37,751 nt of DNA from a virus: the IMG/VR virus record IMGVR_UViG_3300008339_010012, positions 1 through 37,751 of that record; one strand, given 5' to 3'. The notes beneath the pieces were generated by a model, which was given only the letters and a program-made list of their open reading frames with translations, was not told where the DNA came from and ran no database searches. This document shows positions 1,679 to 35,223 of this stretch, piece by piece; position 1 is the stretch's first letter; each line of letters begins with the position of its first letter. The translations under genes were made by a program, and so were the position numbers.

Positions 1679-2831
1679 AGATATAGTAGTGTTCCAAGTC
1701 TTTCCAGAACGCACTAGTATCAATCACATCAGATACTTTGTCAAGGAAAACTTTATCCTCATCAGCGTGCGCTTTTGATGAGTAACGTTTACCTGCTGAT
1801 AAAATATCTTTTCGAGTCAAAAATTTAAGATTTGGAGTGTTTCTAATACTCTCAACCGTTTCCTCACTAATTTGCTTCTCTAGAACAATTGGAGTATCAA
1901 AATATTTTAATCTAATCTTCGCTATGTCTTGAGTATTGCTGCTGACGCATTGTAATGGAATGCCCGTGTTCTTTACTTGATCAAGATACTCTTCAGAAAA
2001 GCTATCTTCAGAATTCACAAAAAGAACCAAGCTTTTAATATTATGCTTGAATGATTTAAGAAGATTGATATTAATTTCTCGTTCTGAATAAATATTAGAT
2101 TGATATTGATTGCACCATTGAGCGACAACGTTTTCGTCGAAATGATAATCTGCCCTAATATTAATAATTCTTTTCTTTAGTTCGTCAGATTCTCCAAAGA
2201 AATTTGGAACAACTTCTACAGTAGCTTTATTGTAATCTTCTCCAATGAAAAGAGTTTTAATAGACGAAGTATATGGTACATTTAAAAGCTCAAAAACATT
2301 TTTTACAATTTCTTCTGGCTTAATTGTATGAATTGATTTTGGACTCTCTTGGTATGAGAAGCAAGGTTTTTTGCCTTTAAGATCAGACTGCATTATTCTC
2401 ACCTTTTCATTACTGCTCCAATATGGATAAGCATTTTGAGCAAAGATGTGGCTATACAAGGCAACGATAGGGATATCGTAAGTGCTAGCTAAATGAATTG
2501 GAAAACTGTCGATTCCCAAATGTAAACTAGCGTTTTTAATAATAAACGCGCTCTGCTTTCTGCTAAAGCCAAGATACTGCTTATCTACATTACTCAAAGG
2601 AGGATCTTGATCTCCGCCGATTTGATAAATTTTGTAACCGTTATTGTTCAACGTTGCTTTCATCAAGTCTATGACTTCAGGAAAGAACTCGTAGTATTTA
2701 GAATCAATTTTATTGTCAACGTGAACCGTGATATACTTCTCATCAACAATAGGTATATAGTGTGGATTAAAGATTGGTTTGCCAATTTTTACCCCTAAAT
2801 TTTTAGCGTATTCTTCAACTAGATGTCCCAT
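1665..2831 (-). CDS. C-terminal half of a GT9-type glycosyltransferase plus extra domain
   Basis: 388 residues. Residues 1-200 match the C-terminal Rossmann half of heptosyltransferase-like GT9 enzymes: a start like HLVEEYAKNLGV, a strand ITVHV, an IYQIGG strand, and the donor-site motif LHLGIDSFPIHLAS (about 103-116), where GT9 enzymes have GxDSGPxHLA. Here Gly is replaced by Phe. The matching N-terminal half lies at the end of the preceding gene, 5 nt upstream and in another frame, so the two genes together form one GT-B enzyme. Residues 200-388 are an unrecognised alpha/beta region. In GT9 enzymes the two Rossmann halves bind the acceptor and the nucleotide-sugar donor respectively. Confidence 0.75.
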   Translation of the reverse strand: MGHLVEEYAKNLGVKIGKPIFNPHYIPIVDEKYITVHVDNKIDSKYYEFFPEVIDLMKATLNNNGYKIYQIGGDQDPPLSNVDKQYLGFSRKQSAFIIKNASLHLGIDSFPIHLASTYDIPIVALYSHIFAQNAYPYWSSNEKVRIMQSDLKGKKPCFSYQESPKSIHTIKPEEIVKNVFELLNVPYTSSIKTLFIGEDYNKATVEVVPNFFGESDELKKRIINIRADYHFDENVVAQWCNQYQSNIYSEREININLLKSFKHNIKSLVLFVNSEDSFSEEYLDQVKNTGIPLQCVSSNTQDIAKIRLKYFDTPIVLEKQISEETVESIRNTPNLKFLTRKDILSAGKRYSSKAHADEDKVFLDKVSDVIDTSAFWKDLEHYYIYESC

Positions 2832-2836
2832 AAATT

Positions 2837-4726
2837 TTAAACGAATTGAAATTGAGTCTTATCTTTTCCGTTATGCTGATATGTAAAATGCCTTTGTGTC
2901 GTGACAAAAGGTAAGAAAGCTAAATCAAAGTATCCTTTGTGAGATCCTTGGCCCTCTAAAAAAAATAGATTGTCAAAAACAGGTGAGTATGGAATCATTT
3001 TATGCACCGCTGGGTGATCATCAACCAATTCAAAAAATTGATGTTGAGTAACAAAATAAATATTATGCTCAGGATACAGTTCTTTTAGGTTATTCAATAA
3101 AGAATTAACCATTAAAATATCACCAGCAGATTGAGGTATCACAACCGCGATTCTTCGACCTTCATCGTCTTTATCCAAGACTTCAGAAATATCAATAATC
3201 TTCTGTTCCACTTTTGAGGCAACGCCGCGAAAATGATTGAGAACTTGTTCTCTGTTCAAGTCTGACTTGAGCCTATCGCACCAATGTAAACATCCTTGAC
3301 TATTATGGTCAATTTTCTCTCCCAAAATATTTTCATAAATATGAACAATCCAATCAGCATCTTTTTCAATAACTGGAACCTCATAGTGAGGATTCTTTTG
3401 TTTCTGAGAGAGATCCCAATTCTCTACTAAAGGAGCGTCATCAAAGATTTTTTGTAGTCTTTCACAGATAATTTCTACTGAGCAGTTATCAAGAACATAC
3501 TGTCGAGCTTTCTTACCCCATTCCTGACGTTTCTCAGGCTTCATATTGAATACCTTTGTCAATTGCTTGCTGATACTTAAAGGGTTCGTAGAAGCCTTAA
3601 TAAACTGAGTGCCTGGTTCTCTATATTCTGACCAGTTTAAATCTAATCCGCCACTCTCTTCGGTGCAGTAATCTTCACCACACGAATAGTTAGTAACTAA
3701 TGTAATTAATTCGGCCAATTTAGCTTCTTGAACTGGAATCTCTTGACCACCGCTAGTGAATGGATGACAGTAAACATCCATCAAGTTATAGATTTCGTTC
3801 AACTGTTTTTCGTTTACGCCGTTAACAATATTAGTAGTGCTCAGAGATTTTTCCGCCCCACAATGATTGCATTTTAATTCTTGGCCAGAGAATGGTCTAA
3901 TTTCATACTGTTTACAATTTTTACAGAAGTATGTTGTGAGCACATCTTCACTGTTGATATTTTTCTCTCTCAGCAAGCGTGGAATATCCCAACCCTCTCC
4001 CCAATGAGTATGAAGTAAAAGTTTAGCTTTGGCTTCTGGATTTTTTCTTTTAAATTCTACATATCCATCTAATAGATTTGGAACACTTTTGCGCAATTGA
4101 TTTCTGAACACAAATCCAATAATAAAATTATTAGATAGTCCAAATTTATTACGCAAATTTTTCTTTTCTAAATCTTCTAATTTATAGAATTGATTAGTAT
4201 CTAATGTTCCATGTAAAGTTTTAACATGATTGTAGCCTAGTTCTTGGAAAGCGCGTTCTGCGAAAGAGGCCCAAACATAATAGTTGTCGATCTTCGGCGC
4301 TGCGTCAACAGCGTCAGGAAGTAAAGGAAGTGAGTCTAGAGTGGTCCACACCATTGAGGTGATATGATTCCACCAAGGCTTGTCCCAAAAGCCGTTAAAG
4401 GCCCAAATGTCTTCGATGCCAAGATACACATCTGGCTTTAGTTCTTGAACAGCTTTATCAACTCCAAAAGCTCCGTAAGATGCTGCTCGTTCTGCTCCGC
4501 CATCTCCTTTGATTTGCGCCATTTTATTTTGATCAGCCATCGAGCCATAACATGCCCAAGGTTGATTCTTGCATTCGGAAGCGTCCCATGCTAATCCGTT
4601 AGCGAATTCAATCAATTCATACTTGCCAGTATTGTAAAGATACTTTAAAATATTTTTACTGTTTTTCCCGAAACCAGTAAATAGCCTAGAAAAGTTTGTA
4701 TGAATTAAGATTCGCTTTTTTCTCAT
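2837..4726 (-). CDS. Multidomain glycosyltransferase: GT4-like, zinc ribbon insert, DUF4214-like, GT9 N-half
   Basis: 629 residues. Residues 1-430 form a GT4-like GT-B enzyme: an N-terminal FxRLFTGFGKN loop, an IIGFVFRNQLRKSVP strand where the second Rossmann domain begins, and the donor-binding segment HPFTSGGQEIPVQEA (about 321-335). A Cys4 zinc ribbon is inserted (C268, C271, C286, C289). Residues 458-503 look like DUF4214 (I-Y-E-N-I-L-G...HWCDRLKSDL...VLNHF). From 524 the sequence begins a GT9 domain (AVVIPQSAGDILMVNSLLNNL, then HPAVHKMIPY), but the gene stops at 2837 before the second half, which is the next gene. It probably assembles two consecutive sugars of a glycan; the acceptor is unknown. 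Confidence 0.8.
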   Translation of the reverse strand: MRKKRILIHTNFSRLFTGFGKNSKNILKYLYNTGKYELIEFANGLAWDASECKNQPWACYGSMADQNKMAQIKGDGGAERAASYGAFGVDKAVQELKPDVYLGIEDIWAFNGFWDKPWWNHITSMVWTTLDSLPLLPDAVDAAPKIDNYYVWASFAERAFQELGYNHVKTLHGTLDTNQFYKLEDLEKKNLRNKFGLSNNFIIGFVFRNQLRKSVPNLLDGYVEFKRKNPEAKAKLLLHTHWGEGWDIPRLLREKNINSEDVLTTYFCKNCKQYEIRPFSGQELKCNHCGAEKSLSTTNIVNGVNEKQLNEIYNLMDVYCHPFTSGGQEIPVQEAKLAELITLVTNYSCGEDYCTEESGGLDLNWSEYREPGTQFIKASTNPLSISKQLTKVFNMKPEKRQEWGKKARQYVLDNCSVEIICERLQKIFDDAPLVENWDLSQKQKNPHYEVPVIEKDADWIVHIYENILGEKIDHNSQGCLHWCDRLKSDLNREQVLNHFRGVASKVEQKIIDISEVLDKDDEGRRIAVVIPQSAGDILMVNSLLNNLKELYPEHNIYFVTQHQFFELVDDHPAVHKMIPYSPVFDNLFFLEGQGSHKGYFDLAFLPFVTTQRHFTYQHNGKDKTQFQFV

Positions 4727-16088: not shown

Positions 16089-16898
16089 ATGAAAATTCAT
16101 TTATTTGGATCAAGAGGAATGTTAGGTAGTTATATATTTTTTTATTTAAAAAATAAAATTGAAATTAATTGCGTATCTAAATCGCATTTTAATATTGCGA
16201 CTAACTCTCAAGAAAATCTTAATGAATTTTTGCATAAAATTGTTAAAGAAGGAGATATAATTATTAATGCAGCGGCAATAACTAAGCCAGAAAAATTCAA
16301 AAAAATAGAGTTATATAAAGTCAACGGTATATTCCCTAATTGGCTAGCCTCTTTCAAGAAAAATTTCGATTGTCAAATAATTAACATTAGTAGTGATGGA
16401 GTCTTCAAAGGAGATAAGGGGAGTTATTCTGAAAATGATCCTCCAGATTCTGAAAATGACTATGGAATAAGTAAATTCATTGGTGAAAATAATTTAAATA
16501 CTAATATTCGTACATCAATTATTGGTGAGGAAATTTACAATAAAAAAAACTTTTTAGAGTGGTTGATACTTAATAAAAATAAAGAAGTTAACGGATACAC
16601 AAACCATTTGTGGAATGGAGTAACTTGTCTTGAATTATGCAAATTAATTGAACATATCGTCATATATAATGAATTTTGGCTAGGAACTAAACACGTTTTT
16701 TCTCCACAAACACTTAATAAGCTTGAATTAATTAAATTAATCAATAGTATCTTTAAGTTAAATTTAACAGTAAATCCAAGTATAGATGAATTTGATTGCA
16801 ATAGAGAACTTAAAACAAAATTCAAACCATTAATTACGACTTCAATCCGTAATCAAATAGAGGAAATTAAAGCGTTCAACATTAAACAATATGATTAA
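16089..16898 (+). CDS. RmlD-like NAD(P)-dependent sugar reductase
   Basis: 269 residues. It starts with the glycine-rich cofactor motif GSRGMLGSY (7-15). The catalytic Tyr125-x-x-x-Lys129 lies in NDYGISKFIGE, preceded by a NISSDGVFKG strand as in dTDP-4-dehydrorhamnose reductases. Such enzymes reduce a 4-keto group of NDP-6-deoxysugars. Together with the GDP-mannose 4,6-dehydratase at 22029 it could finish a GDP-6-deoxyhexose, although the preferred nucleotide is not readable. It is the first gene of the AT-rich island, and its stop overlaps the next ATG by 8 nt. Confidence 0.8.
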   Translation: MKIHLFGSRGMLGSYIFFYLKNKIEINCVSKSHFNIATNSQENLNEFLHKIVKEGDIIINAAAITKPEKFKKIELYKVNGIFPNWLASFKKNFDCQIINISSDGVFKGDKGSYSENDPPDSENDYGISKFIGENNLNTNIRTSIIGEEIYNKKNFLEWLILNKNKEVNGYTNHLWNGVTCLELCKLIEHIVIYNEFWLGTKHVFSPQTLNKLELIKLINSIFKLNLTVNPSIDEFDCNRELKTKFKPLITTSIRNQIEEIKAFNIKQYD

Positions 16899-17703
16899 CA
16901 TAAAAAAATATAGATTACTAGTGGGACTATGTTCTTGGAACAATCCTAATCTTTTAAAGAAATGTATTTCTTCATTGATTTACTCAATGGATTTAAATAA
17001 AGACGGTATCGCTGTAGTTTTAAACGAATCTGATATTGAATCTATAAACTATTTACATAACTTAAAAATACCATTTGTCTCAGTTCCAGAAAATAGCGGC
17101 CCTCTTGGTATTGACTTTCTTTTGCCATTTGTTCAGCATTCTGAATTTTTCATGAACTCTAATGATGACATGTTGTTTCACCCTGGATTTGCTGATGATC
17201 TAATTTCTATCATTCAAAAATCTTATCCATGTACGGCCTCATGCAGATTAATTGAAAATTTCAATAGTAACAATGCAGTTGTAACTGTAGATGCAAGCTT
17301 GCCAAATATTGATGACGATTTTGTATATGATAAATTTATCATGAATTATAATTGCGGAAAATATAAGCATGATTACTATACAATTGGATGGATGCATCCT
17401 ATATGTATCTTATCTAAAGATTTTTTAGAAATTGGTGGCTACTCTGGCAATTGGGACTTAGACTTTTTATCAGGTTATGGCAGGGATGATATGTTTCCGT
17501 TTCTATTGAAAAAATTCAAAAATTATAATTTCATTTGCTCAAAGAATTCATTTGTTTATCACGGCTCTAGCGCAAGCATGAAGAGGCTTCCAGACAGTAT
17601 AAGACAGCAGCATAATATTGACAAATTTCATCAAAAAGCTGGAATATCACTAATGGAATTTAGACATTTGATGGAACTAAACAAACAAATTCGTGAATTA
17701 TGA
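16891..17703 (+). CDS. GT-A glycosyltransferase, GT2-like
   Basis: 270 residues. It opens with LLVGLCSWNNPNLLKKCISSL, the first strand and helix of a GT2 fold. The metal site is N-D-D-M in MNSNDDMLFHP (about 89-99). A later GGYSGNWDLDFLSGYGRDDMFPF segment holds the acidic residues expected near the acceptor. It is probably cytoplasmic and UDP- or GDP-sugar dependent. The 8-nt overlap (ATGATTAA) couples it to the reductase upstream, and it shares an ATGA junction with the epimerase-like gene downstream. Confidence 0.75.
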   Translation: MINIKKYRLLVGLCSWNNPNLLKKCISSLIYSMDLNKDGIAVVLNESDIESINYLHNLKIPFVSVPENSGPLGIDFLLPFVQHSEFFMNSNDDMLFHPGFADDLISIIQKSYPCTASCRLIENFNSNNAVVTVDASLPNIDDDFVYDKFIMNYNCGKYKHDYYTIGWMHPICILSKDFLEIGGYSGNWDLDFLSGYGRDDMFPFLLKKFKNYNFICSKNSFVYHGSSASMKRLPDSIRQQHNIDKFHQKAGISLMEFRHLMELNKQIREL

Positions 17704-18635
17704 TTAAGAATAAAAAAATTTTTATCACTGGAGGTGCAGGTTATTTAGGCTCCAATATCGTTAAGAAGTTGTATGACAATAATCAAATTACGATTTTTAG
17801 CAGAGATGAATCAAAGCACTATTTTTTAAAGAAAAAATTTCCGAATTTAAATTGTGTTATTGGAGATATTAGAAATTTACCATTATTAGATAAAGCTTCT
17901 AAAAATCATGACATAGGTATATTTGCAGCTAGCCTTAAACAAATTGAAGCTGTTGATCAAAATGTTGAAGAAGCTAATGAAATTATCATTAGAGGAGGAA
18001 TCAATAGTAGAAAAGTAGCTGAAAATAATTTAGAATCTGCTTGTTTCATTTCTAGTGATAAGTCTAGATCTTCAACAACGCTATATGGGGCTATGAAATT
18101 TGTTGCTGGTGAATCTTTTATAGTTAATGCGGAGCAAAGTAAATGCAAATTATCATCAGCTATTTATGGTAATGTTGTCAACTCTACTGGAAGTATTATC
18201 CCGTTAATATGGAATGCTATCAATAATAATTATGCATTAACACTCTATTCAGATAAGATGACAAGATTCATGATCACAATTGATGAGGCAATTGATATTA
18301 TCGAAAACGCTTTAAATTATAGTGGATACAATGTCATACCAAAAGCTAAAAGCTTTTTGATTAGAGATTTATTTGAAATTTACAGTGAAAAATTTGGCCT
18401 TAGATATACAACAAGTGTTCCTAGGATTTCTGAAAAAATACATGAAATAATGATCTCTTCTGAAGAGCTTCCTAGAGTTAAGGAGGAAGGAGATTATTTT
18501 CTCATGCACTATAAAAATATTTATAATAATGTTACATTTAATCAAAACGAATTCTCTAGTCGAGATTGTTTAACTTCAAAATGTCAGCTTAATTCTTTTT
18601 TAGAAAAAAATAATTACTATAAACCCCAGAATTAA
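17700..18635 (+). CDS. Extended SDR of the UDP-sugar 4,6-dehydratase type (PseB/CapD-like)
   Basis: 311 residues. ITGGAGYLGSN (9-19) binds NAD(P). In FISSDKSRSSTTLYGAMKFVAGE the D120-K121 pair and Y129-x-x-x-K133 have the spacing of inverting or retaining UDP-GlcNAc 4,6-dehydratases, where the Lys-Asp pair helps dehydration. The C-terminal half binds the sugar nucleotide and is more divergent, ending in a long unmatched tail. Alternatively it could be an epimerase. It would supply a second 4-keto-6-deoxysugar line in addition to the GDP-mannose route. It overlaps the GT gene by 4 nt. Confidence 0.7.
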   Translation: MIKNKKIFITGGAGYLGSNIVKKLYDNNQITIFSRDESKHYFLKKKFPNLNCVIGDIRNLPLLDKASKNHDIGIFAASLKQIEAVDQNVEEANEIIIRGGINSRKVAENNLESACFISSDKSRSSTTLYGAMKFVAGESFIVNAEQSKCKLSSAIYGNVVNSTGSIIPLIWNAINNNYALTLYSDKMTRFMITIDEAIDIIENALNYSGYNVIPKAKSFLIRDLFEIYSEKFGLRYTTSVPRISEKIHEIMISSEELPRVKEEGDYFLMHYKNIYNNVTFNQNEFSSRDCLTSKCQLNSFLEKNNYYKPQN

Positions 18636-18636
18636 A

Positions 18637-19824
18637 ATGAAAGAATATTTAGATTTCAAAAATTCAAGAATATCTGAAAAAATATCTAAGCCGTTTTTAC
18701 GAGCAGATTTACCTCTTGCTGGTCAGTTTTTGAAAGAAGAAGAAATCGGTACGGATTTTAGCTTTCCATTAACATTGTCTTTTTGCGAAGAATCTACATC
18801 TATACAAGTTAATGAATCAATTGATCCTAATATTTTATTTAAAAAATATTTATACAAAACTGGAACAATAAATACATTAGTGAATCATTTCTCTGATTGT
18901 GCAGAAATGATTATCGACAAACTTAAACATGAATCAATTTTAGATTTAGGCTGTAATGACTTTACATTCTTAAAGAATTTTTTAGGTAAATCAAAAACAA
19001 TTTTAGGAATAGATCCAAGTGATATATCTAAAAACAATCAAGTAGATGGTATTTCTTTGGAAAATGATTTTTTTAACCACAGTTTATCGGAAGATTTAAA
19101 AAATAAATATGGACAATTTGATGTGATTTTTAGTAGCAATAATTTTGCTCATATTGAAAACATAAAAGACTATACCGCTGGAATTTCAAACTTAATTAAA
19201 GATGGCGGAACATTTGTTTGCGAAGTACATTGGGCAGGAACATTAATTAAAAATGTTCAATTTCCATTTATTTATCATGAGCATCTATATTATCACACTC
19301 TAAAAGCTTTAAGTTATCTTTTAAATCAATACGGTTTATTTATTTATAGAGTTCAAGATATTAACATACATGGAGGTTCAATAAGAATTTTCGCATCTAA
19401 AACTTTAAATAAGCAAGATGAGTCTGTTGAATCTTTCTATAGTAAAGAAGACTCACTTGGTTTGTATAAGTTTCAAACATATTCAGAATTCTCAGATAAA
19501 ATACTTCAATTAAAAAAGAGCAGTAAAGAAATCTTAAATAAACTTAAAGATAAAAATAAAAAAATCTATGGTTATGGAGCTTCTGGGCAAGCTAATACTT
19601 TGATGAGTTTTTTCGATATTACTAAAGATGACTTATCTTTCATCATAGATGATTCTCCAGTAAAGCATAATTTGTATACGCCAAAAAATCACATACAAAT
19701 TAAAAATAAAGAATTTTTGAATCAGCATCCAGCAAGCGATATTTATATCCTCGCTTACACATTTGAAAAAGAAATTAGAGAAAAAAATAAAGACTTACTA
19801 GTTGATTGGCACTTTCCATTTTAA
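18637..19824 (+). CDS. NDP-sugar C-methyltransferase-like protein
   Basis: 395 residues with the three-part layout of TylC3/NovU-type sugar C-methyltransferases. The N-terminal region begins with LPLAGQFL and continues into an FKKYLYKTG motif. The SAM-binding core has motif I LDLGCND (102-108) and an FSSNNFAHIENI loop. The C-terminal domain has YGYGASGQANTLMSFF (311 on) and DDSPVKHNLYTPKNHIQI. These enzymes add a methyl branch to a keto-sugar nucleotide. The usual N-terminal zinc CxxC pairs are not conserved: only one Cys (C50) remains in that segment. It sits among the sugar genes and starts 1 nt after the previous stop. Confidence 0.8.
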   Translation: MKEYLDFKNSRISEKISKPFLRADLPLAGQFLKEEEIGTDFSFPLTLSFCEESTSIQVNESIDPNILFKKYLYKTGTINTLVNHFSDCAEMIIDKLKHESILDLGCNDFTFLKNFLGKSKTILGIDPSDISKNNQVDGISLENDFFNHSLSEDLKNKYGQFDVIFSSNNFAHIENIKDYTAGISNLIKDGGTFVCEVHWAGTLIKNVQFPFIYHEHLYYHTLKALSYLLNQYGLFIYRVQDINIHGGSIRIFASKTLNKQDESVESFYSKEDSLGLYKFQTYSEFSDKILQLKKSSKEILNKLKDKNKKIYGYGASGQANTLMSFFDITKDDLSFIIDDSPVKHNLYTPKNHIQIKNKEFLNQHPASDIYILAYTFEKEIREKNKDLLVDWHFPF

Positions 19825-19830
19825 TAAAAT

Positions 19831-20439
19831 ATGATAACATTTTTAATCACCGCTTGTAATGAAAAAACAGAATTGAAAGAAAATTTAAAATTCGTCAACG
19901 CCTTTAAACAAAAAGGAGATGAAGTTTTAATTCTTTTAGATGAGGAAAAATTAGATGATGAAATTTTTCAAATAGCAAAATCTAATTCTGATAGAGTTAT
20001 TTCAAAAATGCTCAATAAAGACTTTTCAGCATTTAAGAACTTTGGCTTAAATAATGCAAAAAACAATTATGTTTTACATTTAGATGCGGATGAAATAATC
20101 AACGCTTTAATTATACAAGTCATTAGAAATACAATTGCCAACAATAAGGGTATATCTGGAATTCATATTCCTCGCATCAATATTGTAAACAATTCTTCAA
20201 GCGATGACTTAGCTAAATTTAATTTCAAAATCAATGAAAATGGCTGGATTAATTGGCCAGACTATCAACCAAGATTTATTAATAAATCAAGTGGAATTCA
20301 TTTTGTCAATAAAGTTCATGAGACATTTAACGATCATTCTAAAACCGTATTCTTAGAATCGTCCGCACATTTTGCACTTTTACATATTAAAGATATCAAT
20401 AAACAAAAACAGCAAAATCAATTTTATGACACTATCTAA
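19831..20439 (+). CDS. GT2-like glycosyltransferase
   Basis: 202 residues, short for GT2, but the essentials are present: LITACNEKTELKENLKFV at the start, VLHLDADEI as the DxD site (about 87-95), and NWPDYQPRFINKSSGIHFVNKVHE (about 145-168), which is characteristic of WaaE/KdtX-type beta-glycosyltransferases involved in LPS core or protein glycans. The C-terminus is cut short relative to relatives, which often extend by another 50-100 residues. The next gene starts 14 nt before its stop. Confidence 0.8.
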   Translation: MITFLITACNEKTELKENLKFVNAFKQKGDEVLILLDEEKLDDEIFQIAKSNSDRVISKMLNKDFSAFKNFGLNNAKNNYVLHLDADEIINALIIQVIRNTIANNKGISGIHIPRINIVNNSSSDDLAKFNFKINENGWINWPDYQPRFINKSSGIHFVNKVHETFNDHSKTVFLESSAHFALLHIKDINKQKQQNQFYDTI

Positions 20440-21379
20440 GGATATTATTAACAATAGTTTTTTAAATTTAATTGATTCTAATTTAAATTTTGACGTTGAA
20501 AAAAATTTAGACACTGAAGAGCTTTTACCACAAGAACTGCATTTAAAGGTTTCTAATAAAAGTATAGAAATTAAAAGGGCGCACAATTTTCAAGACAATT
20601 TAAGAATAAAGTCTTTTTTTAATTTTTTAACCGAAGCTATTAAATTAATTAGCTCAGATTTAAATTTTGAAATAATTGTTAATTTATCAGAAGGTATTGA
20701 GCAAGAGTTAAATGTCAAAAGATTTTGCTATTCTCAAAAAAAAGGTTTCAAGAACATTATGATACCAGATGCTCATAATTTCCTTACATACGAAAAGGTA
20801 ATCTCACTTAACTCTATTGACATTCCATTTGCAAAAAAGACAAAGAAAGCTGTTTTTGCAGGTTCAGATACTGGAAGGATTATTAATGGATTTAGTCAGA
20901 GATCTTTGTTTTGCGAAAGATTTGCGAATGATGAAGAGGTATTTGCTAAACTAATTGGAACTATTAGAGATGAGGTTAAAAGTTCAATCACTAACTTTGA
21001 TAAAGTATTTACATCGAATTATATTTCAATACAAGAGCAATTAAAAAGTCAGGTCATTGTTAATATAGATGGAAACAGTACATCTTGGGAAAGACCTTTA
21101 TGGGCAATGGCTTCTAATTCTATATGCATCTACCTTGAGCCAATGCATGAACATGAATTTGAGTCTTGGTACTATCCCTTAATGCAGTTTTTATGTGTTA
21201 CTCCAAAAGTATCTATTGATAATTTTAAAATTTTTATTAATAATAATTTTGAAGATTCTTATTGGCAACTATTGAACTATAATCAAAAAATATTCTCCTT
21301 TACAGTTACCGACTTAAAAAATCAGTATTTATATATGGCTTACTTAATTTCCCATTACAATAAAAAATATAATGAATAA
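20426..21379 (+). CDS. GT90/CAP10-like glycosyltransferase
   Basis: 317 residues from the Met at 20426; the longer frame starts inside the previous gene. The core resembles GT90 (LpsA/CAP10/O-glucosyltransferase) proteins: KKAVFAGSDTGR with QRSLFCERFAN, then VIVNIDGNSTSWERPLWAMASNSI (the DG-N-S/T-x-x nucleotide-sugar site), followed by W-Y-Y-P-L-M-Q-F-L-C-V. In that family the enzyme transfers glucose, xylose or galactose onto proteins or LPS. The donor and acceptor cannot be told. It is coupled to its neighbours by overlaps of 14 and 8 nt. Confidence 0.75.
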   Translation: MTLSKDIINNSFLNLIDSNLNFDVEKNLDTEELLPQELHLKVSNKSIEIKRAHNFQDNLRIKSFFNFLTEAIKLISSDLNFEIIVNLSEGIEQELNVKRFCYSQKKGFKNIMIPDAHNFLTYEKVISLNSIDIPFAKKTKKAVFAGSDTGRIINGFSQRSLFCERFANDEEVFAKLIGTIRDEVKSSITNFDKVFTSNYISIQEQLKSQVIVNIDGNSTSWERPLWAMASNSICIYLEPMHEHEFESWYYPLMQFLCVTPKVSIDNFKIFINNNFEDSYWQLLNYNQKIFSFTVTDLKNQYLYMAYLISHYNKKYNE

Positions 21380-22007
21380 AATTCTCACAATACTATTATT
21401 GAGGCCAAATTCTCCCGAATGCTGGATTGAGAATGCTAATAAAATTAAAAATACGTTAACGCATCCTCAAAATGATATTCAATTCTTTTCTGAAGCAGCG
21501 TCTTCTTTAGGTGGGAAATACGCAAAAGAAGCTAATGCAAGAAATCAAGCTATAGATAAACTCTTAAAGCCTGAGCATACTCATGTTTTTTGGATTGATA
21601 CTGATGTTGTAGAATATCCACCAGACATTATAGAAAAATTATTATCACTAGATTCTGAAAACTGTATTTCTCCATATGTCTTTATTGAAGACAATAATTG
21701 GTGGGATTTTAAAAGATTTTATGATATTGATTCTTTTTTTGATTTGAATAATAAAAATTTTAATTATTCACCACCATATACCGATAATGATTCATTAGAA
21801 TTAAAAGAGGTAAAATCAATTGGAACTTGTATGCTAATTAATGCAGAGGTTTACAGATCTGGATGCATGTATGATTGCTTTGATCCTCGCGTCGAACACG
21901 TTTCATTTTTTGAACAAGCGAAATCAAAAGGTTATAAAGTATATGCTTGTCCAAAAATTGAAGTCAGGCACGCATTTTTACCTAAATATGGAATTCAATT
22001 TAGGTAA
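21372..22007 (+). CDS. GT-A glycosyltransferase, mannosyltransferase-like
   Basis: 211 residues. VFWIDTDVVEYPPDIIEKLL (about 72-91) gives a D-x-D metal site, and SIGTCMLINAEVYRSG is the acceptor-side segment that in Anp1/mannan-polymerase-like enzymes and related phage transferases follows the DxD. Its N-terminus, ILTILLLRPNSPECWI, is the first strand and loop. An 8-nt overlap (ATGAATAA) joins it to the GT90-like gene. It is the last gene of the strongly AT-rich island; the next gene is GC-richer. Confidence 0.7.
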   Translation: MNKILTILLLRPNSPECWIENANKIKNTLTHPQNDIQFFSEAASSLGGKYAKEANARNQAIDKLLKPEHTHVFWIDTDVVEYPPDIIEKLLSLDSENCISPYVFIEDNNWWDFKRFYDIDSFFDLNNKNFNYSPPYTDNDSLELKEVKSIGTCMLINAEVYRSGCMYDCFDPRVEHVSFFEQAKSKGYKVYACPKIEVRHAFLPKYGIQFR

Positions 22008-22028
22008 AATATTAAAATTTTTAAATAA

Positions 22029-23066
22029 ATGAAAACAATTATCATCACAGGAGTAACAGGTCAAGATGGTTCGCTGATGGCAGACTATCTATTAAAAAAC
22101 ACAGATTTTTTTGTGTATGGAGCGCATAGACGTTTAAGTGTTCCTAATCATGGCAACATCGAGCATCTTAAAAATAATTCAAGATTTTCTACAATTGACT
22201 TGGATATTACTGACCCCGAAAATATTAATCAGGTAATTCGCGAAATTAAACCTGATTACTTTATTAATTTTGCCGCTAATTCTTTTGTTGGCAATAGTTG
22301 GAAAATGCCAGTAAATCACATGCAAACAAATTGTATGGGAGTTCTTTTTTGTTTAGAGGCTATCCGTAACTACTCACCAGAAACTAGATTTTATAATGCT
22401 GGAAGTAGCGAACAATTTGGAGACGTAGTTTATTCTCCACAAGATATTAATCATCCGTTTCGTCCAAGATCACCTTACGGAGCCGCCAAATGCGCTGCGC
22501 ATCACCTTGTAAAAGTCTATCGCGACTCTTACAATCTTTACGCTGTTCAAGGCATCTTGTTTAATCATGAGGGTGTTCGTCGCGGGGAAGAGTTTGTAAC
22601 GCGCAAAATCACAAAGAACGTGGCAAGAATCTATAACGCTAAAGAGAACAACGAGTCATTTCTGCCCATGCAGCTTGGAAATGTAGATGCAAAACGCGAT
22701 TGGAGCGATGCTCAAGATTTTGTACACGGTGTATGGCTCATGTTAAATCAAAACTCCCCTAAAGACTATGTTTTATCCGCCAATGAAACTCATTCAGTCC
22801 GAGAGTTTGTGGAGCTAGCTTTTCAAGAAGCTTTTATTGATGGAGAATGGTCTGGGAATGGAGTTGACGAATTCTTTTTTGACAAAAAAACAAAACAAAA
22901 ACTTGTAGTTATTAATTCAGAATTCTATCGTCCAGCCGAAGTCGATTTGCTCTGGGGAGATTCAAATCCAGCAAGACAAGATCTTGGCTGGGTTCCAAAA
23001 ACGTCTTTTTCAAAACTAGTTCAAAAAATGGTTGCATCAGACCTTGATTGGCCTTATAATGATTAG
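22029..23066 (+). CDS. gmd: GDP-mannose 4,6-dehydratase
   Basis: 345 residues, the usual length. The cofactor loop is ITGVTGQDGSL (6-16). The catalytic Ser-Ser-Glu lies in NAGSSEQFG (123-131) and Tyr150/Lys154 in SPYGAAKC. HEGVRRGEEFVTRKI and LGNVDAKRDWSDAQDFVHGVW match the NADP- and GDP-contact segments of Gmd almost word for word. It converts GDP-mannose to GDP-4-keto-6-deoxymannose, the precursor of GDP-fucose, rhamnose and perosamine-type sugars. Its base composition (about 40% GC in the stretch checked) is clearly higher than in the preceding glycan genes (about 22-25%), suggesting a different origin. Confidence 0.95.
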   Translation: MKTIIITGVTGQDGSLMADYLLKNTDFFVYGAHRRLSVPNHGNIEHLKNNSRFSTIDLDITDPENINQVIREIKPDYFINFAANSFVGNSWKMPVNHMQTNCMGVLFCLEAIRNYSPETRFYNAGSSEQFGDVVYSPQDINHPFRPRSPYGAAKCAAHHLVKVYRDSYNLYAVQGILFNHEGVRRGEEFVTRKITKNVARIYNAKENNESFLPMQLGNVDAKRDWSDAQDFVHGVWLMLNQNSPKDYVLSANETHSVREFVELAFQEAFIDGEWSGNGVDEFFFDKKTKQKLVVINSEFYRPAEVDLLWGDSNPARQDLGWVPKTSFSKLVQKMVASDLDWPYND

Positions 23067-28838: not shown

Positions 28839-28848
28839 AGCGTATCAT
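28839..28848 (+). repeat. Decamer AGCGTATCAT, copy 2, at the PHP gene start
   Basis: Second copy of the decamer at 25249. It overlaps the first in-frame ATG (28847) of the PHP gene. A small hairpin, GCTTG-ACGCGA-CAAGC, ends just before it (28826-28841). These are the only two copies I found, and both are at starts of replication genes after a gap between genes. Confidence 0.35.
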
Positions 28849-29620
28849 GTTAGCATATAACATGATTCCCATCTTCAAATCAACATATAGTATCGGGAAG
28901 TCGATACTAACATTAGACGATCCTTCTAAAGTAAAAGAAGGAGGTTCTGATAGCATTCTCTCTATAGCCAAAGAAGAGAATTTAAACCAAATTGTTTTGG
29001 TAGAAGATTCTATGATCGGCTTCTTGAATGCACATACAAGATGCAAGGAAGCAGGGGTTCAATTAATTTTCGGTTTACGCATTGGATGCGTGAACCAGAG
29101 AACTCCAGAATTCTTAGAGTCAAACGATACACTGCACAAGATAGTTCTGATGGGAAAGAACGATGCTGGTATCAAAGCTCTAACTAAAATTTATTCTATC
29201 GCGAATAAGGAATCGAAAGGTTTAGTAGATTGTGATCTACTCAAACAATATTGGACAGATGATTTAAAACTCTGCATTCCATTTTACGATTCATTTATTT
29301 ACATGAATAATTTTATCGGTAGAAAGTGTGTCCCTAATTTTGGATTCACAAAACCGACAATCTTTATCGAAGATAACGATCTCCCTTTCGATCAATTCAT
29401 TCTTGAGAAAGCGTCTAAATACGCTCAGGAAAATGATCTACATATCGAAAAAGTAAAATCTATCTATTACAAAAATAAAGAAGATTTTTCAGCTTGGCAA
29501 ACTTATAAATGCCTATGCAATCGTACCTTTGGTAAAGAACGCTCTTTGTCTAATCCAAACTTAGAGCATTGTGGAAGCGACTCGTTTTGCTGGGAATCTT
29601 ATAAACAATATGAAGGATAA
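28847..29620 (+). CDS. Separate PHP domain of DNA polymerase III alpha (probably inactive)
   Basis: 257 residues from ATG 28847; ATG 28862 is also plausible. The sequence matches the N-terminal PHP domain of DnaE: IPIFKSTYSIGKSILTL for HxHTxYSxLDG, QIVLVEDSMIGFLNAHTRCKEAGVQLIFGL for AITDHG...FYxAAKxAGIKPIIG, and LMGKNDAGIKALTKIYSIA for the neighbouring helix. The metal-binding His pair becomes Phe/Lys and D-H becomes E-D, so phosphatase or proofreading activity by PHP is unlikely. It ends just before the polymerase palm and is followed by the exonuclease gene. It probably supports the polymerase structurally. Confidence 0.8.
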   Translation: MLAYNMIPIFKSTYSIGKSILTLDDPSKVKEGGSDSILSIAKEENLNQIVLVEDSMIGFLNAHTRCKEAGVQLIFGLRIGCVNQRTPEFLESNDTLHKIVLMGKNDAGIKALTKIYSIANKESKGLVDCDLLKQYWTDDLKLCIPFYDSFIYMNNFIGRKCVPNFGFTKPTIFIEDNDLPFDQFILEKASKYAQENDLHIEKVKSIYYKNKEDFSAWQTYKCLCNRTFGKERSLSNPNLEHCGSDSFCWESYKQYEG

Positions 29621-30245
29621 TTTACTACGATTTAATTTCGGTCAAAAATACCTTGTCTTAGATACTGAGACAGAAGGTTTGAATCTTTGTCATACTCGAC
29701 CTTGGCAAATTGCTTGGATCGAAGCTGTTGGCAAAAAGATCGTTAGCCGCCAAGAGAGATACATCTGGTGGGACGATTTAAAGGTAAGTGAGGAAGCTGC
29801 GCGAATCACTGGATTTAACTATGAGAAATATCGCTCTCTAGCAAAGAGTCCAAAAGAAATCTTGAAAGAGTTTTTGCCGCTTCTTAAAGACAAGAATACA
29901 AAAATCATTGGACAGAACATTCTTGGGTTTGATGTTTACATGATTAATTCATGGATGAAACATGCTGGTTTAGAAACAGACTATTCTTATGTAAAGAATA
30001 TTCTCGACACAAAGGCTATCGCCATGTCTATCGCTAAGGGCGTTAAAACAGTAGACACAAACGATTTAATCTCTTGGCAGTATAGATGGTTAAATTATAG
30101 AGAGAAGGGAATCAAAACAAGCCAAGCTCACTTGCTTAAAACATACGATATTCCGCATGATCCATCAAAACTTCATGATGCTCTTTATGATATTGAAATG
30201 ACCTTTCAAATTTTCCAGAAACAGATTTATGACATCGAAATTTAA
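29610..30245 (+). CDS. DnaQ-like 3'-5' proofreading exonuclease
   Basis: 211 residues from ATG 29610, an 11-nt overlap (ATGAAGGATAA) with the PHP gene. DEDDh motifs are complete: Exo I D18 and E20 (LVLDTETEGL), Exo II D108 (GQNILGFDVYMINSW), Exo III H189 and D194 (KLHDALYDIEMTF). It should remove mismatched nucleotides from 3' ends. Placed between the PHP and polymerase parts of DnaE, it recalls PolC, where an exonuclease lies inside PHP, except that here it is a free gene. Its stop overlaps the polymerase start by 17 nt. Confidence 0.9.
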   Translation: MKDNLLRFNFGQKYLVLDTETEGLNLCHTRPWQIAWIEAVGKKIVSRQERYIWWDDLKVSEEAARITGFNYEKYRSLAKSPKEILKEFLPLLKDKNTKIIGQNILGFDVYMINSWMKHAGLETDYSYVKNILDTKAIAMSIAKGVKTVDTNDLISWQYRWLNYREKGIKTSQAHLLKTYDIPHDPSKLHDALYDIEMTFQIFQKQIYDIEI

Positions 30246-32802
30246 TATGTTAAACGAATTCCAAAAATACGAAAGCCCAACACTTCCTGGAGTTAAACTC
30301 CCACAAATCATTATTGAACAAAAATATTATGATACTTTAGGGATTCCGAATACCTCAAGCAATTACCAATTCTTGCGCAAGCTCTGTCATAAAGGAGTTC
30401 TTGATAAAGGTATCAATAAAAAAGAAAACGCTCAAATTTATTACGATAGAGTTAAAACTGAGCTAGAGCTTTTTGAAGAATTGGGGTTCATTGATTATGT
30501 TTTGCTTAACTGGGACATTTTAAATTTCTGTCATGAAAACAATATTCCAACAGGACCAGGGCGTGGAAGTGCTGCTGGTTCTCTTGTTCTTTATCTCATT
30601 CAAGTAACGAAGGTTGACCCAATCGAATACGATCTTTATTTTGAGCGTTTCGTTTCTAAGAGTCGAGCTAAAAAGATTGTTGTTGGAGATGAGGTTTATC
30701 TTGACGGCTCCCTATTAGCAGATGTGGATAACGATATTGCTTATGAACGCCGACACGAAGTATTGTCGTTCATTGAGAAGAAATATTCTGGCAAGACTTG
30801 TAAAATTTTAACATTAAATACTCTCAGCAGTAAACTCTGTATTAAAGAATGTGGTAAGCTGGTTGGCGAAATGCCAGAGTCTACCGTTAATGAAATTAGC
30901 GATTTGATTCCGAAGAAATTTGGGAAGGTTGCTTCTTTAAAACAAGCGGTAGAAGAGAGCGAAAAGTTTAAAGAGTTCGCTGTTCAAAATCAGAGAGTAT
31001 TTAAGATCGCCCAGAAACTAGAAGGCTTAATCAAGAACACTGGTGTTCATCCTTCTGGCATTGCTATCAGCCACTACTCTCTAGAGGATATAATGCCCCT
31101 TCAGACGACTTCTGAAGGTGATCTAGTGTCGGGATATGATATGAACGATGTGGCGAGCTTATGCGTCAAATTCGATATTCTAGGACTCAGAACACTATCT
31201 GTAATTCAAGACGTTTGTTCGCAGATTGATTTGGATATTTTATCTGTTGATTTAAAGGGTAAAGATATTTACGACAACCTTCAACACATCATTACTCCTC
31301 AAGGTCTTTTCCAGATTGAAGCTGATACTAACTTCCATGTTTGCCAAAAGGTTAAACCTAAAAATTTAGAACAGCTTTCCGCTGTGGTTGCTATCGCAAG
31401 ACCTGGAGCTTTAGATTTCCTTAGTCGTTATACCAGATATGTAGAGACGGGAGAGTTTCAAAGCGTTCATCCATTGTTTGACGAGATTCTTCAATACACT
31501 GGAGGCATTCCACTCTATCAAGAACAGCTTATGAAGATGGCTGTAAAGGTTGGATTCACTCTTGATGAGTCAGAACAGCTTCGTCGTATCGTTGGCAAAA
31601 AGAAAGTTGACCAAATGGGAGCTTGGCAGCAGAAGATTAAAGACAAGATCGAAGAAAACGAACTTGATCCTATTGTGGGAGATGTGCTTTGGAAAGTAGC
31701 CGAAGACTCTGCGAACTATTCCTTTAACAAATCACATTCGATCTCTTACGCTATTCTCGCTGCTTGGACTGTTTATCTTAAATTCAAATATCCTCAGAAT
31801 TTCTTTTTGAGCCTTTTGAAGATGACTCAGTTTGAGCCAGACTCTTATGAAGAAATTAATAAAATCAGTCAAGAGTTGGCTCTTTTCAATATCAAACTTC
31901 TTCCGCCAGATCTGATCAAATCAAAAATCGACTTTTCTATTGAAGGAAAAAATATCAGATTCGGATTAAACAGTATCAAGGGTATTTCAGACAATACCAT
32001 GAAAGGCTTAATGGAATTTAGCAAAACAGAGTTGTCCAATAAATACGATGTATTCCAAGTCGCGAAACAAGTAGGGTTAAACATTGGCAATCTCTCCGCT
32101 TTGATTCAAGCTGGAGTATTGAATAGCTTTTCAGAAGATAGATGCAGATTGGTTCTTGAAGCTCAAACTTTCAACATCCTCACCGACAGAGAAAAAAGAC
32201 TATTCGCTTCTCTTGGAGAGAAGTATAAATACGATATTCTGAATACTATTCATGATTCGGTAAAACAAAAATCAATTGGTGACGATTCAAAAGCCATCAT
32301 GAGTGAAAAACGCTTCTCCACTTTTAAAGAGAAGTATGCGGGATACAGAGAAATCTACGATAAAAATATCAAGCATCCGAAATTCGCCAATTGGTTTTTT
32401 GAAACTAAATTACTTGGTTACTCTTATTCTCAGAATATCAGAGATATTTTTAAAGAAGACAGTGCCTCCAGATATGTTGACTGCTTAACGTTCAACGCTC
32501 TTGACATTAACGAGAACGTGCGTATGGTAGGAGTAGTGAAAGATTGCTACAGAAAGAAGAGTCAAAATGGAAACAAATACGCGAGAATTGAACTATCTGA
32601 TGAAAGCGGAAAGATCAAAGCTATGCTACTTGATTCCAACAACAAAATGCGCCTAACTGAGTATCTTGAAAACGGTAATAAACTTCCCAAAGAAGAAAGT
32701 ATCGTAATCATCACTGGCAAAAAAGGAGATGGAGTTCTTTTCATTGATAAAATGTCTATTTTAGATGAAAAGATTTATATGAAACTATCAGAAATTAAAT
32801 AA
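30229..32802 (+). CDS. DNA polymerase III alpha, polymerase portion without PHP
   Basis: 857 residues from ATG 30229; ATG 30247 lies just after the exonuclease stop and is an alternative. GPGRGSAAGSL (109-119) binds the incoming dNTP. D165 and D167 (ADVDND) and D316 (CVKFDILGLRTL) match the palm aspartates D401, D403 and D555 of E. coli DnaE. The thumb/fingers contain YQEQLMKMAV and RRIVGKKK. The NKSHSISYA segment and a C-terminal OB fold (VRMVGVVKD...GKIKAMLLDS) follow. About 10 extra residues sit before the first palm Asp. No clamp-binding motif is obvious. The N-terminal PHP is encoded separately upstream. Confidence 0.93.
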   Translation: MTSKFNMLNEFQKYESPTLPGVKLPQIIIEQKYYDTLGIPNTSSNYQFLRKLCHKGVLDKGINKKENAQIYYDRVKTELELFEELGFIDYVLLNWDILNFCHENNIPTGPGRGSAAGSLVLYLIQVTKVDPIEYDLYFERFVSKSRAKKIVVGDEVYLDGSLLADVDNDIAYERRHEVLSFIEKKYSGKTCKILTLNTLSSKLCIKECGKLVGEMPESTVNEISDLIPKKFGKVASLKQAVEESEKFKEFAVQNQRVFKIAQKLEGLIKNTGVHPSGIAISHYSLEDIMPLQTTSEGDLVSGYDMNDVASLCVKFDILGLRTLSVIQDVCSQIDLDILSVDLKGKDIYDNLQHIITPQGLFQIEADTNFHVCQKVKPKNLEQLSAVVAIARPGALDFLSRYTRYVETGEFQSVHPLFDEILQYTGGIPLYQEQLMKMAVKVGFTLDESEQLRRIVGKKKVDQMGAWQQKIKDKIEENELDPIVGDVLWKVAEDSANYSFNKSHSISYAILAAWTVYLKFKYPQNFFLSLLKMTQFEPDSYEEINKISQELALFNIKLLPPDLIKSKIDFSIEGKNIRFGLNSIKGISDNTMKGLMEFSKTELSNKYDVFQVAKQVGLNIGNLSALIQAGVLNSFSEDRCRLVLEAQTFNILTDREKRLFASLGEKYKYDILNTIHDSVKQKSIGDDSKAIMSEKRFSTFKEKYAGYREIYDKNIKHPKFANWFFETKLLGYSYSQNIRDIFKEDSASRYVDCLTFNALDINENVRMVGVVKDCYRKKSQNGNKYARIELSDESGKIKAMLLDSNNKMRLTEYLENGNKLPKEESIVIITGKKGDGVLFIDKMSILDEKIYMKLSEIK

Positions 32803-32814
32803 GAGTGTAAAAAG

Positions 32815-35223
32815 ATGAGGATGAAAAATTTCAACTTGACTCCACGGGTCAAAAAAGTTTTAGAAAACGCACAACTAGACGCTGAACAAGCGAAGCATGA
32901 GCGTGTAAACTGCGCCCACTTATTCAAAGCTTTATTTAAAATTAATTATCCCTTATTTGATTCTATTTTTAAACCATATAAAATAGACTACATTAATCTT
33001 TCTCAAAACATTATTCCTTTTGTGGAGGAGAATCATCCAGAATTCTTTAAGAAAAAGAATAGAGAAAAGCTATGGCATAACGAAGTCCAAGAAATTGTGA
33101 AATTCGCCAATCAAATTAGCGAAGAACTAAATCAAGAGTATATTGGGATAGAGCATTTCTTATATGCTTTGTTAACAACATCTCCCACAATCAGAGGATA
33201 TTTAGATTACAAAAAAGTACCCTATGAAAATATCGCAGAGAGTTTGATTTCTCACTTAAAGCCTCAACCCAAAGAAGATGTGGAAGTTGAAGAAAGAGAA
33301 ATGTCTGAATCAATAGAAACAAAAGAAGAGAATAAAACTAGGTATATTGAAAAATATTGCACGAATTTAAACGCTCTTGCAATGACTGATCGCGTTAATA
33401 ACGTCTTTGGTAGAGATAAAGAGATTGAAGCTCTTATAGAAACTGTCTTGAGAAAAACAAAAAATAATGTTATTCTTATAGGAGATCCTGGAGTTGGTAA
33501 AACGGCGATTGTAGAAGGCTTGGCATCAAAGATAGTCAATGAACAAGTAACTTATTTGCTTGGAGGCAGAATCGTCGTTTCGCTAAACGTAGCTTCAATG
33601 GTTGCAGGAACAAAATATCGTGGACAATTTGAACAACGATTCCAAGGATTATTAGACGAACTTAAAAAAGATAAGCGTTATATTTTATTCATTGATGAAA
33701 TTCATACAGTGATTGGCGCTGGAAGCGGAGAGGGATCGTTAGACGTAGCCAACATGATCAAGCCGTCTTTAGCAAGAGGAGAAATCTGCTGTATTGGAGC
33801 GACAACTCATGCTGAGTATAAGAAATACTTTGAGAAAGATGGAGCACTAAAACGCCGCTTTGAAGCTATTAACATTGATGAGCCTACTAAAGAACAGACT
33901 AAACAAATCATGATGAGTTCTAAAAAGGGCTTCGAAGAGTTTCATGAAGTTTCTTTCTCAGAGGAAATGATTAATAATCTGATTTATCTCTGCGATAAAT
34001 ACATGCCTTACCGCAAATTTCCAGATAAAGCTTTTGATATTCTTGATACGATTAGTTCAAGAGTTAAAATCAAAAACTTTAAAATGCCGCAATCTTTAGT
34101 TTCTTTGGAGAAGAAGATCAAAAGAGATTTAGAAAAAATGGACAGCCAAGCTGTTCGTGATAGATGCGAAGATATGATTGCCTCATATAGCGAGAAGCTT
34201 TTTGAATGGTCTAAGAAAGAAAAGAAAGCTGTTGCTATAACACTAGACGATCTAATAACTGTCTTTGCGGATAAGTTAAAAATTAATAAGAATAAAATAG
34301 TAATCGCGCAAAACTCTGAAGATGAAGAGATTTCTAAAGTCATGAAAGAAAATGTCTTTGGCCAAGATGAGGCTATGGAAAAACTTTCAGATATTTTAAT
34401 CTGTGCAAGGGCTGGTCTTAAAGATAAGAAAAAGCCATTAGCTAAATTTTTGTTTATCGGACCAACTGGAGTTGGCAAAACTTGGACCGCCAAGTTACTT
34501 GCTGAAAAGTTCTTTGGTAATGAAAAGCTACTGCTTAAACTTGATATGAGCGAATATCAAGAAGCTAGCTCTATTAATAAACTGATTGGCTCCGCTATTG
34601 GATACATTGGATGTGAAGAAGGAGGCGTATTAACTGAGTTCGTTCGCAACCACCCAAACTGTGTTGTTTTATTCGATGAAATCGAAAAAGCCAATAGAGA
34701 AATAAATAGCATTCTTTTACAGATCATGGATGACGGTTACGTTACCGATAGTCTTGGTCGCCGCATTGATTTCACTAATACGATTATTATTCTCACTGGT
34801 AATATTGGACAAGAGGAATCGGCAATGAAACCTTCTATGGGATTCAATTCTGTGGTCGAAAAACAAGAAGATGTTTATAAAAAAGCAGTGGAGAAATTCT
34901 TTAAACCAGAATTCTTAGGCAGACTTGACGAAGTTATTCCTTTTAAGAAAATTTCTAACAAAGAGTTTCATAAAATCTTGGAAACAATGATCGGTAAAAC
35001 AAAAGCCCTACTTTTAGAGCAAGGGCGCACGATTGAAATTGAAGAAGGTATCTTTGACCTATTGCTTAAAATCATTGAGAAAGAAGGAAGTAACGCTAGA
35101 GCGATTCAAAAAATCTATCGCAAAAATTTTGAAATCAATTTAGCCAAATTCCTTTGTCAAGATAAGTCTCCGATTATTTCTGCAAAAATAAATCAAAGCG
35201 AAGTAATTTTTCAAGCAGCTTAA
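32815..35223 (+). CDS. ClpC/ClpA-like AAA+ unfoldase with ClpP-binding-type loop
   Basis: 802 residues. An N-terminal Clp_N double repeat (about 5-150) binds substrates or adaptors. The first AAA+ module has Walker A GDPGVGKT (223-230) and Walker B D294-E295; a short middle segment of ClpC size, not the long coiled coil of ClpB, follows. The second module has GPTGVGKT (549-556) and VVLFDEIEKA. Between helix and arginine-finger region, at 675-677, is M-G-F, at the position of the V-G-F or I-G-L/F loop that docks ClpC, ClpA or ClpX on ClpP. It could use host ClpP for protein degradation. Start at 32815 or 32821. Confidence 0.85.
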   Translation: MRMKNFNLTPRVKKVLENAQLDAEQAKHERVNCAHLFKALFKINYPLFDSIFKPYKIDYINLSQNIIPFVEENHPEFFKKKNREKLWHNEVQEIVKFANQISEELNQEYIGIEHFLYALLTTSPTIRGYLDYKKVPYENIAESLISHLKPQPKEDVEVEEREMSESIETKEENKTRYIEKYCTNLNALAMTDRVNNVFGRDKEIEALIETVLRKTKNNVILIGDPGVGKTAIVEGLASKIVNEQVTYLLGGRIVVSLNVASMVAGTKYRGQFEQRFQGLLDELKKDKRYILFIDEIHTVIGAGSGEGSLDVANMIKPSLARGEICCIGATTHAEYKKYFEKDGALKRRFEAINIDEPTKEQTKQIMMSSKKGFEEFHEVSFSEEMINNLIYLCDKYMPYRKFPDKAFDILDTISSRVKIKNFKMPQSLVSLEKKIKRDLEKMDSQAVRDRCEDMIASYSEKLFEWSKKEKKAVAITLDDLITVFADKLKINKNKIVIAQNSEDEEISKVMKENVFGQDEAMEKLSDILICARAGLKDKKKPLAKFLFIGPTGVGKTWTAKLLAEKFFGNEKLLLKLDMSEYQEASSINKLIGSAIGYIGCEEGGVLTEFVRNHPNCVVLFDEIEKANREINSILLQIMDDGYVTDSLGRRIDFTNTIIILTGNIGQEESAMKPSMGFNSVVEKQEDVYKKAVEKFFKPEFLGRLDEVIPFKKISNKEFHKILETMIGKTKALLLEQGRTIEIEEGIFDLLLKIIEKEGSNARAIQKIYRKNFEINLAKFLCQDKSPIISAKINQSEVIFQAA

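Follow-up and report, generated by a model that had tools for sequence, protein, structure and literature searches.

A C-family DNA polymerase of uncultured phages split at its PHP border, with an exonuclease gene between the halves

In single-chain DnaE, such as the Pol III alpha of E. coli and Taq or the phage DnaEs of PHROG 405, the PHP domain is followed by palm, thumb, finger, HhH and OB domains on one polypeptide. PolC also unites a PHP domain and a C-family polymerase, together with a DEDDh exonuclease, in one chain; its exonuclease lies inside the PHP domain, and its OB domain is N-terminal (PMC3919608). The literature describes the PHP domain of bacterial replicative polymerases as strictly conserved, and the role of the inactive PHP domains is unsettled (PMC3666897; PMC12926913). 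Here we analyze a stretch of virus DNA, IMG/VR virus record IMGVR_UViG_3300008339_010012, whose full length of 37,751 nucleotides (nt; ~37.7 kb) we call the window, and in which the PHP domain, a DEDDh exonuclease and the polymerase core (Pol) of a DnaE are encoded by three consecutive genes, the split set. The split is real and conserved: a probable C-family replicase has undergone fission of its gene at the PHP border, and the proofreader gene stands between the halves.

Compared with single-chain DnaE, the split set has the same domains in the same order and the same catalytic aspartates, but it places PHP and Pol on two chains with the exonuclease gene between them, and it has no C-terminal domain. 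In the DnaEs of isolated phages that we scanned, the PHP is fused in 9/9 (Brevibacillus, Streptomyces, Pseudomonas, Moorella, Mycobacterium, Chryseobacterium, Gordonia, Bacillus, and Lactococcus). Unlike PolC, the split set has an uninterrupted PHP, whose match to PolC residues 336..785 spans the place where the PolC exonuclease is inserted. The nearest gene order is that of the Pbunavirus (PB1-like) phages, with a 4-nt overlap between a DnaQ gene and dnaE and with a degenerate PHP metal site; there, however, the PHP is fused to Pol and the exonuclease gene stands ahead of the whole DnaE. In one of them, Pseudomonas phage vB_PaeM_CEB_DP1 (L178 2676-6337), the fused PHP is without most metal ligands, while the ligand set is complete in several other phage DnaEs. 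The Pbunavirus combination of lost PHP metal ligands and a DnaQ gene is in line with an active PHP and a DnaQ-type exonuclease replacing each other.

Enzymes made from two genes without splicing, as we propose for the split set, are represented by the 43A/43B PolB of an Aeromonas phage and the NrdA of Aeh1 (PMC2988022). PolB is another polymerase family, and those cuts are tied to mobile elements and were found in single phages, whereas the cut here falls on a domain border, is conserved across a diverse clade, and has a functional partner gene sitting at it. The cyanobacterial split-intein DnaE is also made in two pieces, but these are spliced and the cut is within the Pol core; the split set has no intein at the PHP/Pol cut.

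One DnaE on two chains, and a complete exonuclease

The features of the locus, all on the + strand, are as follows (aa, amino acids).

28847..29620, + strand: PHP subunit gene, 257 aa; full DnaE-type PHP domain with its metal site lost; alternative start at 28862
29610..29620, + strand: PHP/exonuclease overlap, 11 nt; the exonuclease start precedes the PHP stop
29610..30245, + strand: DEDDh proofreading exonuclease gene, 211 aa from ATG; core only, no C-terminal tail
30229..30245, + strand: exonuclease/Pol overlap, 17 nt
30229..32802, + strand: DnaE polymerase core gene, 857 aa; palm, thumb, fingers, HhH and OB; no PHP and no C-terminal tau-binding domain
30727..30735, + strand: codons of the palm DxD, D167 and D169, catalytic, present in 69/69 relatives
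31174..31176, + strand: codon of the third catalytic aspartate, D316 (KFDILGLRT), 69/69

An earlier note on this DNA, made from the letters alone, had described three consecutive overlapping genes at 28847-32802, and their coordinates and the overlaps of 11 and 17 nt proved exact. The three open reading frames (ORFs) are in three different frames. The second ATG of the PHP gene, at 28862, may be the true start, as it is the one used by most relatives. For the exonuclease, reading could also begin at a GTG at 29571, but the relatives begin at the ATG at 29610.

The first gene encodes a complete DnaE PHP domain, as the note had it. The Pfam PHP family (PF02811) matches it at 7e-7, over the cut-off. 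In a model made with AlphaFold (all models were built from 20-sequence alignments; here with a predicted local distance difference test score, pLDDT, of 89), residues 3-257 align to residues 5-259 of Taq DnaE (Z 22.9, 235 aligned residues, 2.9 A), which is the full length of the chain. The comparison to E. coli DnaE 3-248 gives a similar Z of 22.5, in contrast with 12.6 for the best stand-alone, non-polymerase, PHP enzyme. A profile-profile comparison with the fused DnaEs places PHP residues 5-257 on E. coli 1-248 (P 9e-14).

The third gene encodes the rest of the enzyme. Its Pfam matches are DNA_pol3_alpha (PF07733, 3e-61), DNA_pol3_finger (PF17657, 1e-29) and HHH_6 (PF14579, 2e-15), and residues 13-844 of its model (pLDDT 78) align to Taq DnaE 283-1121 with a Z of 35, the fold matches of the chain giving Z 35-38. 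The catalytic residues D167, D169 and D316 are invariant in 69/69 sequences. An OB domain follows the fingers: the model at ~745-848 aligns to OB folds (Z ~12) and to the Taq OB region, and the Pfam OB match scores 26.4 bits, slightly below the cut-off of 27. The C-terminal tau-binding domain is missing, as the alignment stops at Taq residue 1121-1122 of 1220 and Pol ends ~10 residues further on. The claim that the Pol core begins just before the motif GPGRGSAAGSL holds only in part. The chain is indeed a DnaE core that starts in the region after the PHP, and it is homologous from about residue 13, but the real start is 108 residues ahead of that motif.

There is no PHP domain at the N-terminus of the Pol chain; the PHP is a separate ORF in another frame. 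Two genes align to consecutive parts of one chain, Taq 5-259 and 283-1121, and therefore the PHP and Pol chains together make up one DnaE, with the cut in the PHP-palm linker. The end of PHP and the start of Pol fall within ~15 residues of homologous sequence, and relative to a whole DnaE, the pair is short of ~23 linker residues and the C-terminal domain.

Between the two, the second gene encodes a complete DEDDh exonuclease. It matches Pfam RNase_T (PF00929, 2e-12); its closest PHROG is annotated 'DNA polymerase exonuclease subunit' (1e-22), and its profile matches include the PolC-type exonuclease domain, DnaQ, and E. coli epsilon. The five catalytic residues D18, E20, D108, H189 and D194 are invariant in 66/66 relatives.

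The split set in its relatives

Relatives of Pol and PHP were collected from IMG/VR, and their six-frame ORFs were profile-searched for all three proteins. After removing identical copies, there are 186 distinct polymerases, forming 142 clusters at 95%, ~90 at 85%, and 36 at 70%, and the least pairwise identity among them is 40%. All three genes are present in 175 of the 186 loci, the remainder being cut by contig ends. Every clade locus with enough sequence has the order PHP-exonuclease-Pol on a single strand, and the PHP gene is never lost from such loci. The earlier note had proposed looking in related phages for the same order or for a fused gene: the order is the same in 175 loci, and no ORF among the clade loci matched two of the three profiles. 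Neither a frame-joining error nor an exonuclease gene placed elsewhere, the findings that would have counted against a split with the exonuclease gene at its border, turned up in any relative. In a tree of 36 representatives together with 14 single-chain DnaEs, a 100/100 branch sets the split group apart, and the fused rows are long-branched. The fission of DnaE into PHP and Pol chains would most simply have happened once, in the ancestor of the clade.

The PHP and exonuclease genes overlap at 108 of 172 junctions, and the exonuclease and Pol genes at 120 of 180, of which 91 are overlaps of 4 nt, the commonest type. A 4-nt gene overlap is typical of coupled translation.

The unrelated genes that can lie between neighbours code for an IMP dehydrogenase (IMPDH)/GMP-reductase, a LAGLIDADG endonuclease, a mannose-6-phosphate isomerase, and others. 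The IMP dehydrogenase/GMP reductase-like gene is found between PHP and exonuclease in four relatives (L059 6389-7363, L061 1263-2312, L071 6107-7060, and L168 4359-5342), identified with Pfam in L059 and by similarity to L059 in the other three; it could bear on the nucleotide metabolism of the phage. In another relative (L290 216-725), Pol carries an extra N-terminal stretch of ~160 residues that is neither PHP nor exonuclease and has no Pfam match. A free protein between PHP and exonuclease (L136 6702-7211) is weakly like that stretch (BLASTP 23% over 77 aa, E 0.003).

In five relatives, Pol itself is broken at ANYSFNK/SHSIS by an apparent split intein (L085 7356-11276, L108 7365-10255, L153 7369-11247, L157 7384-10588, and L166 5995-8979). 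The final ~95 residues of the N-half match an intein splicing domain (L166, 2.5e-4), and the C-half begins with ~38 residues ending in ...VTSN or ITSN. This site lies ~4 residues away from where the split intein of cyanobacterial DnaE sits. An endonuclease-like gene lies between the halves in L085, where it has a NUMOD3 motif, and in L153; in L166 the halves are 13 nt apart.

A tblastn search with PHP found no match in 50,697 phage records. Pol matched 1,343 of those records, the best being only ~28-32% identical, and queries from two divergent subclades found no better matches. There is no cultured member of this phage group in the collections searched. A scan for related loci that started from the divergent relative L164 gave 2 loci only. 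Matches of 54-67% occur in genome contigs (L160-L169) from metagenome-assembled genomes (MAGs) labelled Saprospiraceae, Flavobacteriaceae, Verrucomicrobiales, Halobacteriovorax, Woesebacteria, and Lokiarchaeota. These are probably viral contigs mis-binned into unrelated MAGs, and for that reason the host cannot be read from the MAG labels.

Readings of the split

These genes probably supply an uncultured phage clade with its replicative DNA polymerase. We read it as a DnaE with PHP and Pol core on separate chains and the exonuclease gene between them, acting as a non-covalent proofreading replicase in which the PHP is structural. In this enzyme the PHP chain would dock on the palm/thumb side of Pol as it does in Taq and E. 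coli DnaE, and would act as a structural subunit that also positions the exonuclease; the exonuclease, held differently from E. coli epsilon, would supply all of the proofreading; and translation of the overlapping genes may be coupled, which would ensure joint production of the subunits. A three-subunit assembly was one of the two possibilities raised by the earlier note, and it is the one that best explains the split genes.

Several described cases are consistent with such an enzyme. Residues 1-270 of E. coli Pol III, a fragment ending close to the present cut, are well behaved alone and bind the exonuclease (PMC3642679). Loss of the PHP metal ligands accompanies a separate exonuclease, and mutations in the PHP make Pol III less stable (PMC3666897). 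The split chains of phage gp43 and NrdA reassemble and work as separate chains (PMC2988022). Our literature search, which had partial coverage, turned up no C-family polymerase described as having its PHP in trans.

With respect to the role of the enzyme, 18 contigs of 97-205 kb have one DnaE each and no PolA or PolB, with the caution that the contigs may be incomplete, and the PHP matches found on contigs of this size are a single ORF beside the polymerase. The split enzyme is thus a probable replicase of a large uncultured phage group. Conservation and the lack of any other recognised polymerase suggest that the enzyme is active, and if it is, its palm functions with the PHP not covalently attached.

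Some observations weigh against this reading. That the three chains associate is something we infer, and the proposed place of the exonuclease in the complex draws on the position of its gene and from the general pairing of inactive PHP domains with DnaQ-type exonucleases. In E. coli, the epsilon tail wraps the PHP and carries the clamp motif QTSMAF (PMC3642679). A PHP-binding C-terminal tail and a clamp-binding motif beyond the core are absent from the exonuclease in all 66 relatives, since just 23 residues remain after the catalytic His; hence, if PHP or Pol holds the exonuclease, it does so by another surface than in epsilon. No DnaN-type clamp, by its N- or its C-terminal domain, was found in 16 large contigs, in a search that did detect its controls; this negative covers the DnaN type, as a T4-type clamp profile detected none of its controls. 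Nor is there a conserved clamp-binding motif: the regular-expression matches fall in the conserved finger region or are poorly conserved. And ~28% of the relatives have other sequence or genes between neighbours, so that co-translation is not essential.

An apparent clamp loader, a weak PHROG 168 match in all large contigs, is RuvB-like where examined; in L331 and L332 the matching AAA+ protein is RuvB-like, ~300 aa long, and has a winged helix at its C-terminus.

The first alternative concerns the PHP. None of the 7 alignable positions of its metal ligand set (HHDHEHCDH) is kept, two further positions not being alignable, and the chain does not have the ligands of an active PHP nuclease. The mapping is validated by several fused phage DnaEs, in which this alignment recovers every ligand. 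At the former ligand positions are K11, K18, D54, R78, K98, S205 and Y207, the first five each 90-98% conserved among relatives. The ratio of nonsynonymous to synonymous substitution rates (dN/dS) of PHP is 0.05 against L002, with a median of 0.07 in close pairs, and those of exonuclease and Pol are 0.04. The PHP fold is kept under strong purifying selection despite its lost metal ligands. The near-invariant residues that replace the metal site would fit a PHP protein that has left the polymerase for another role, binding a nucleotide, DNA or a host protein by its basic former metal pocket, with Pol working without any PHP, and up to ~1.8 kb of other genes can separate the PHP gene from the exonuclease gene. 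We consider this unlikely, given that the chain aligns over its full length to a polymerase PHP far better than to stand-alone PHP enzymes, ends where a polymerase PHP ends, has its gene ahead of those of exonuclease and Pol in every locus, and is present wherever a locus has enough sequence. A speculative elaboration of the three-subunit replicase, to which we give similarly little credence, is that the former metal pocket is a conserved basic site (K11, K18, R78 and K98, together with E53/D54) for a ligand, for example DNA, pyrophosphate or a nucleotide, and that the PHP is a dissociable subunit switching the polymerase between synthesis and editing.

In a second alternative, PHP and Pol constitute the polymerase, and the exonuclease is an independent enzyme, for instance of recombination or end processing, that merely shares the operon. 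The distance from the catalytic His to the C-terminal end, exactly 23 residues in 66/66 exonucleases with no epsilon-type tail or clamp motif, would suit such an enzyme, and so would the matches to solved structures, which are restricted to the core (residue 203 aligns with epsilon 176). Nevertheless, its gene sits at the PHP/Pol border without exception, its PHROG match is to a polymerase exonuclease subunit, and the Pbunavirus phages also have a DnaQ gene overlapping a DnaE with a degenerate PHP. Besides, such a polymerase would have no recognised proofreader, because its PHP is inactive. An independent exonuclease is somewhat less likely again than a PHP employed elsewhere.

The chains could also be joined into one protein by trans-splicing or by programmed frameshifting. 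DnaE is a classic split-intein host, some relatives carry a split intein in Pol, and the genes overlap out of frame. But there is no intein sequence at the PHP/Pol break, where ~15 residues leave no room for intein halves, and the spacing of the junctions ranges from -26 to >1000 nt, with whole genes inserted. Since the spacing varies so freely, there is no conserved frameshift site, and joining of the chains is very improbable.

The other possibility in the earlier note, a PolC broken into pieces, recalls PolC in having an exonuclease gene between PHP and Pol, but the parts are not those of PolC. The Pol profile matches DnaE structures in the PDB (Taq) at 2e-109 and PolC at 2e-5, ~100 orders of magnitude apart; the OB domain is C-terminal; and the exonuclease follows a complete PHP, where that of PolC interrupts it. 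Domain order, OB position and core type refute this origin, and we hardly credit it any longer. Finally, a sequencing or assembly error that split one DnaE gene is negligible, since 186 distinct relatives from many metagenomes share the split and none is fused, which excludes chance as well.

Surroundings of the locus and meaning of the split

The three genes are preceded by DnaB-type helicase, primase-like and PD-(D/E)XK nuclease genes. Downstream of Pol, at 32815-35223 of the window, is a gene for a two-ATPase chaperone of ClpA/B type (PHROG 4871, 'ATP-dependent protease', 2e-209), and many large relatives too have an AAA+ ORF of 800 residues a few kb from Pol. Elsewhere in the window there is a nucleotide-sugar/polysaccharide cassette at 16089-23066, with RmlD-like, polysaccharide biosynthesis 2, C-methyltransferase and GDP-mannose 4,6-dehydratase genes, and there are glycosyltransferase-like genes on the minus strand at 1665-4726.

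Fission of a gene and reassembly of its product were already known in phages, for T4-type gp43 and for NrdA. What appears to be new here is a C-family PHP in trans, one that has been cut off cleanly and yet has been retained for a long time, across relatives down to 40% identity. As nature has made PHP, exonuclease and Pol separable, each can be mixed, omitted or mutated singly, and the hypothesis that the PHP is a structural scaffold becomes directly testable. If a dissociable PHP did switch the enzyme between synthesis and editing, it would be a form of control impossible for a single-chain DnaE. The three genes together also provide a marker for finding this uncultured phage group, and they identify its probable replicase.

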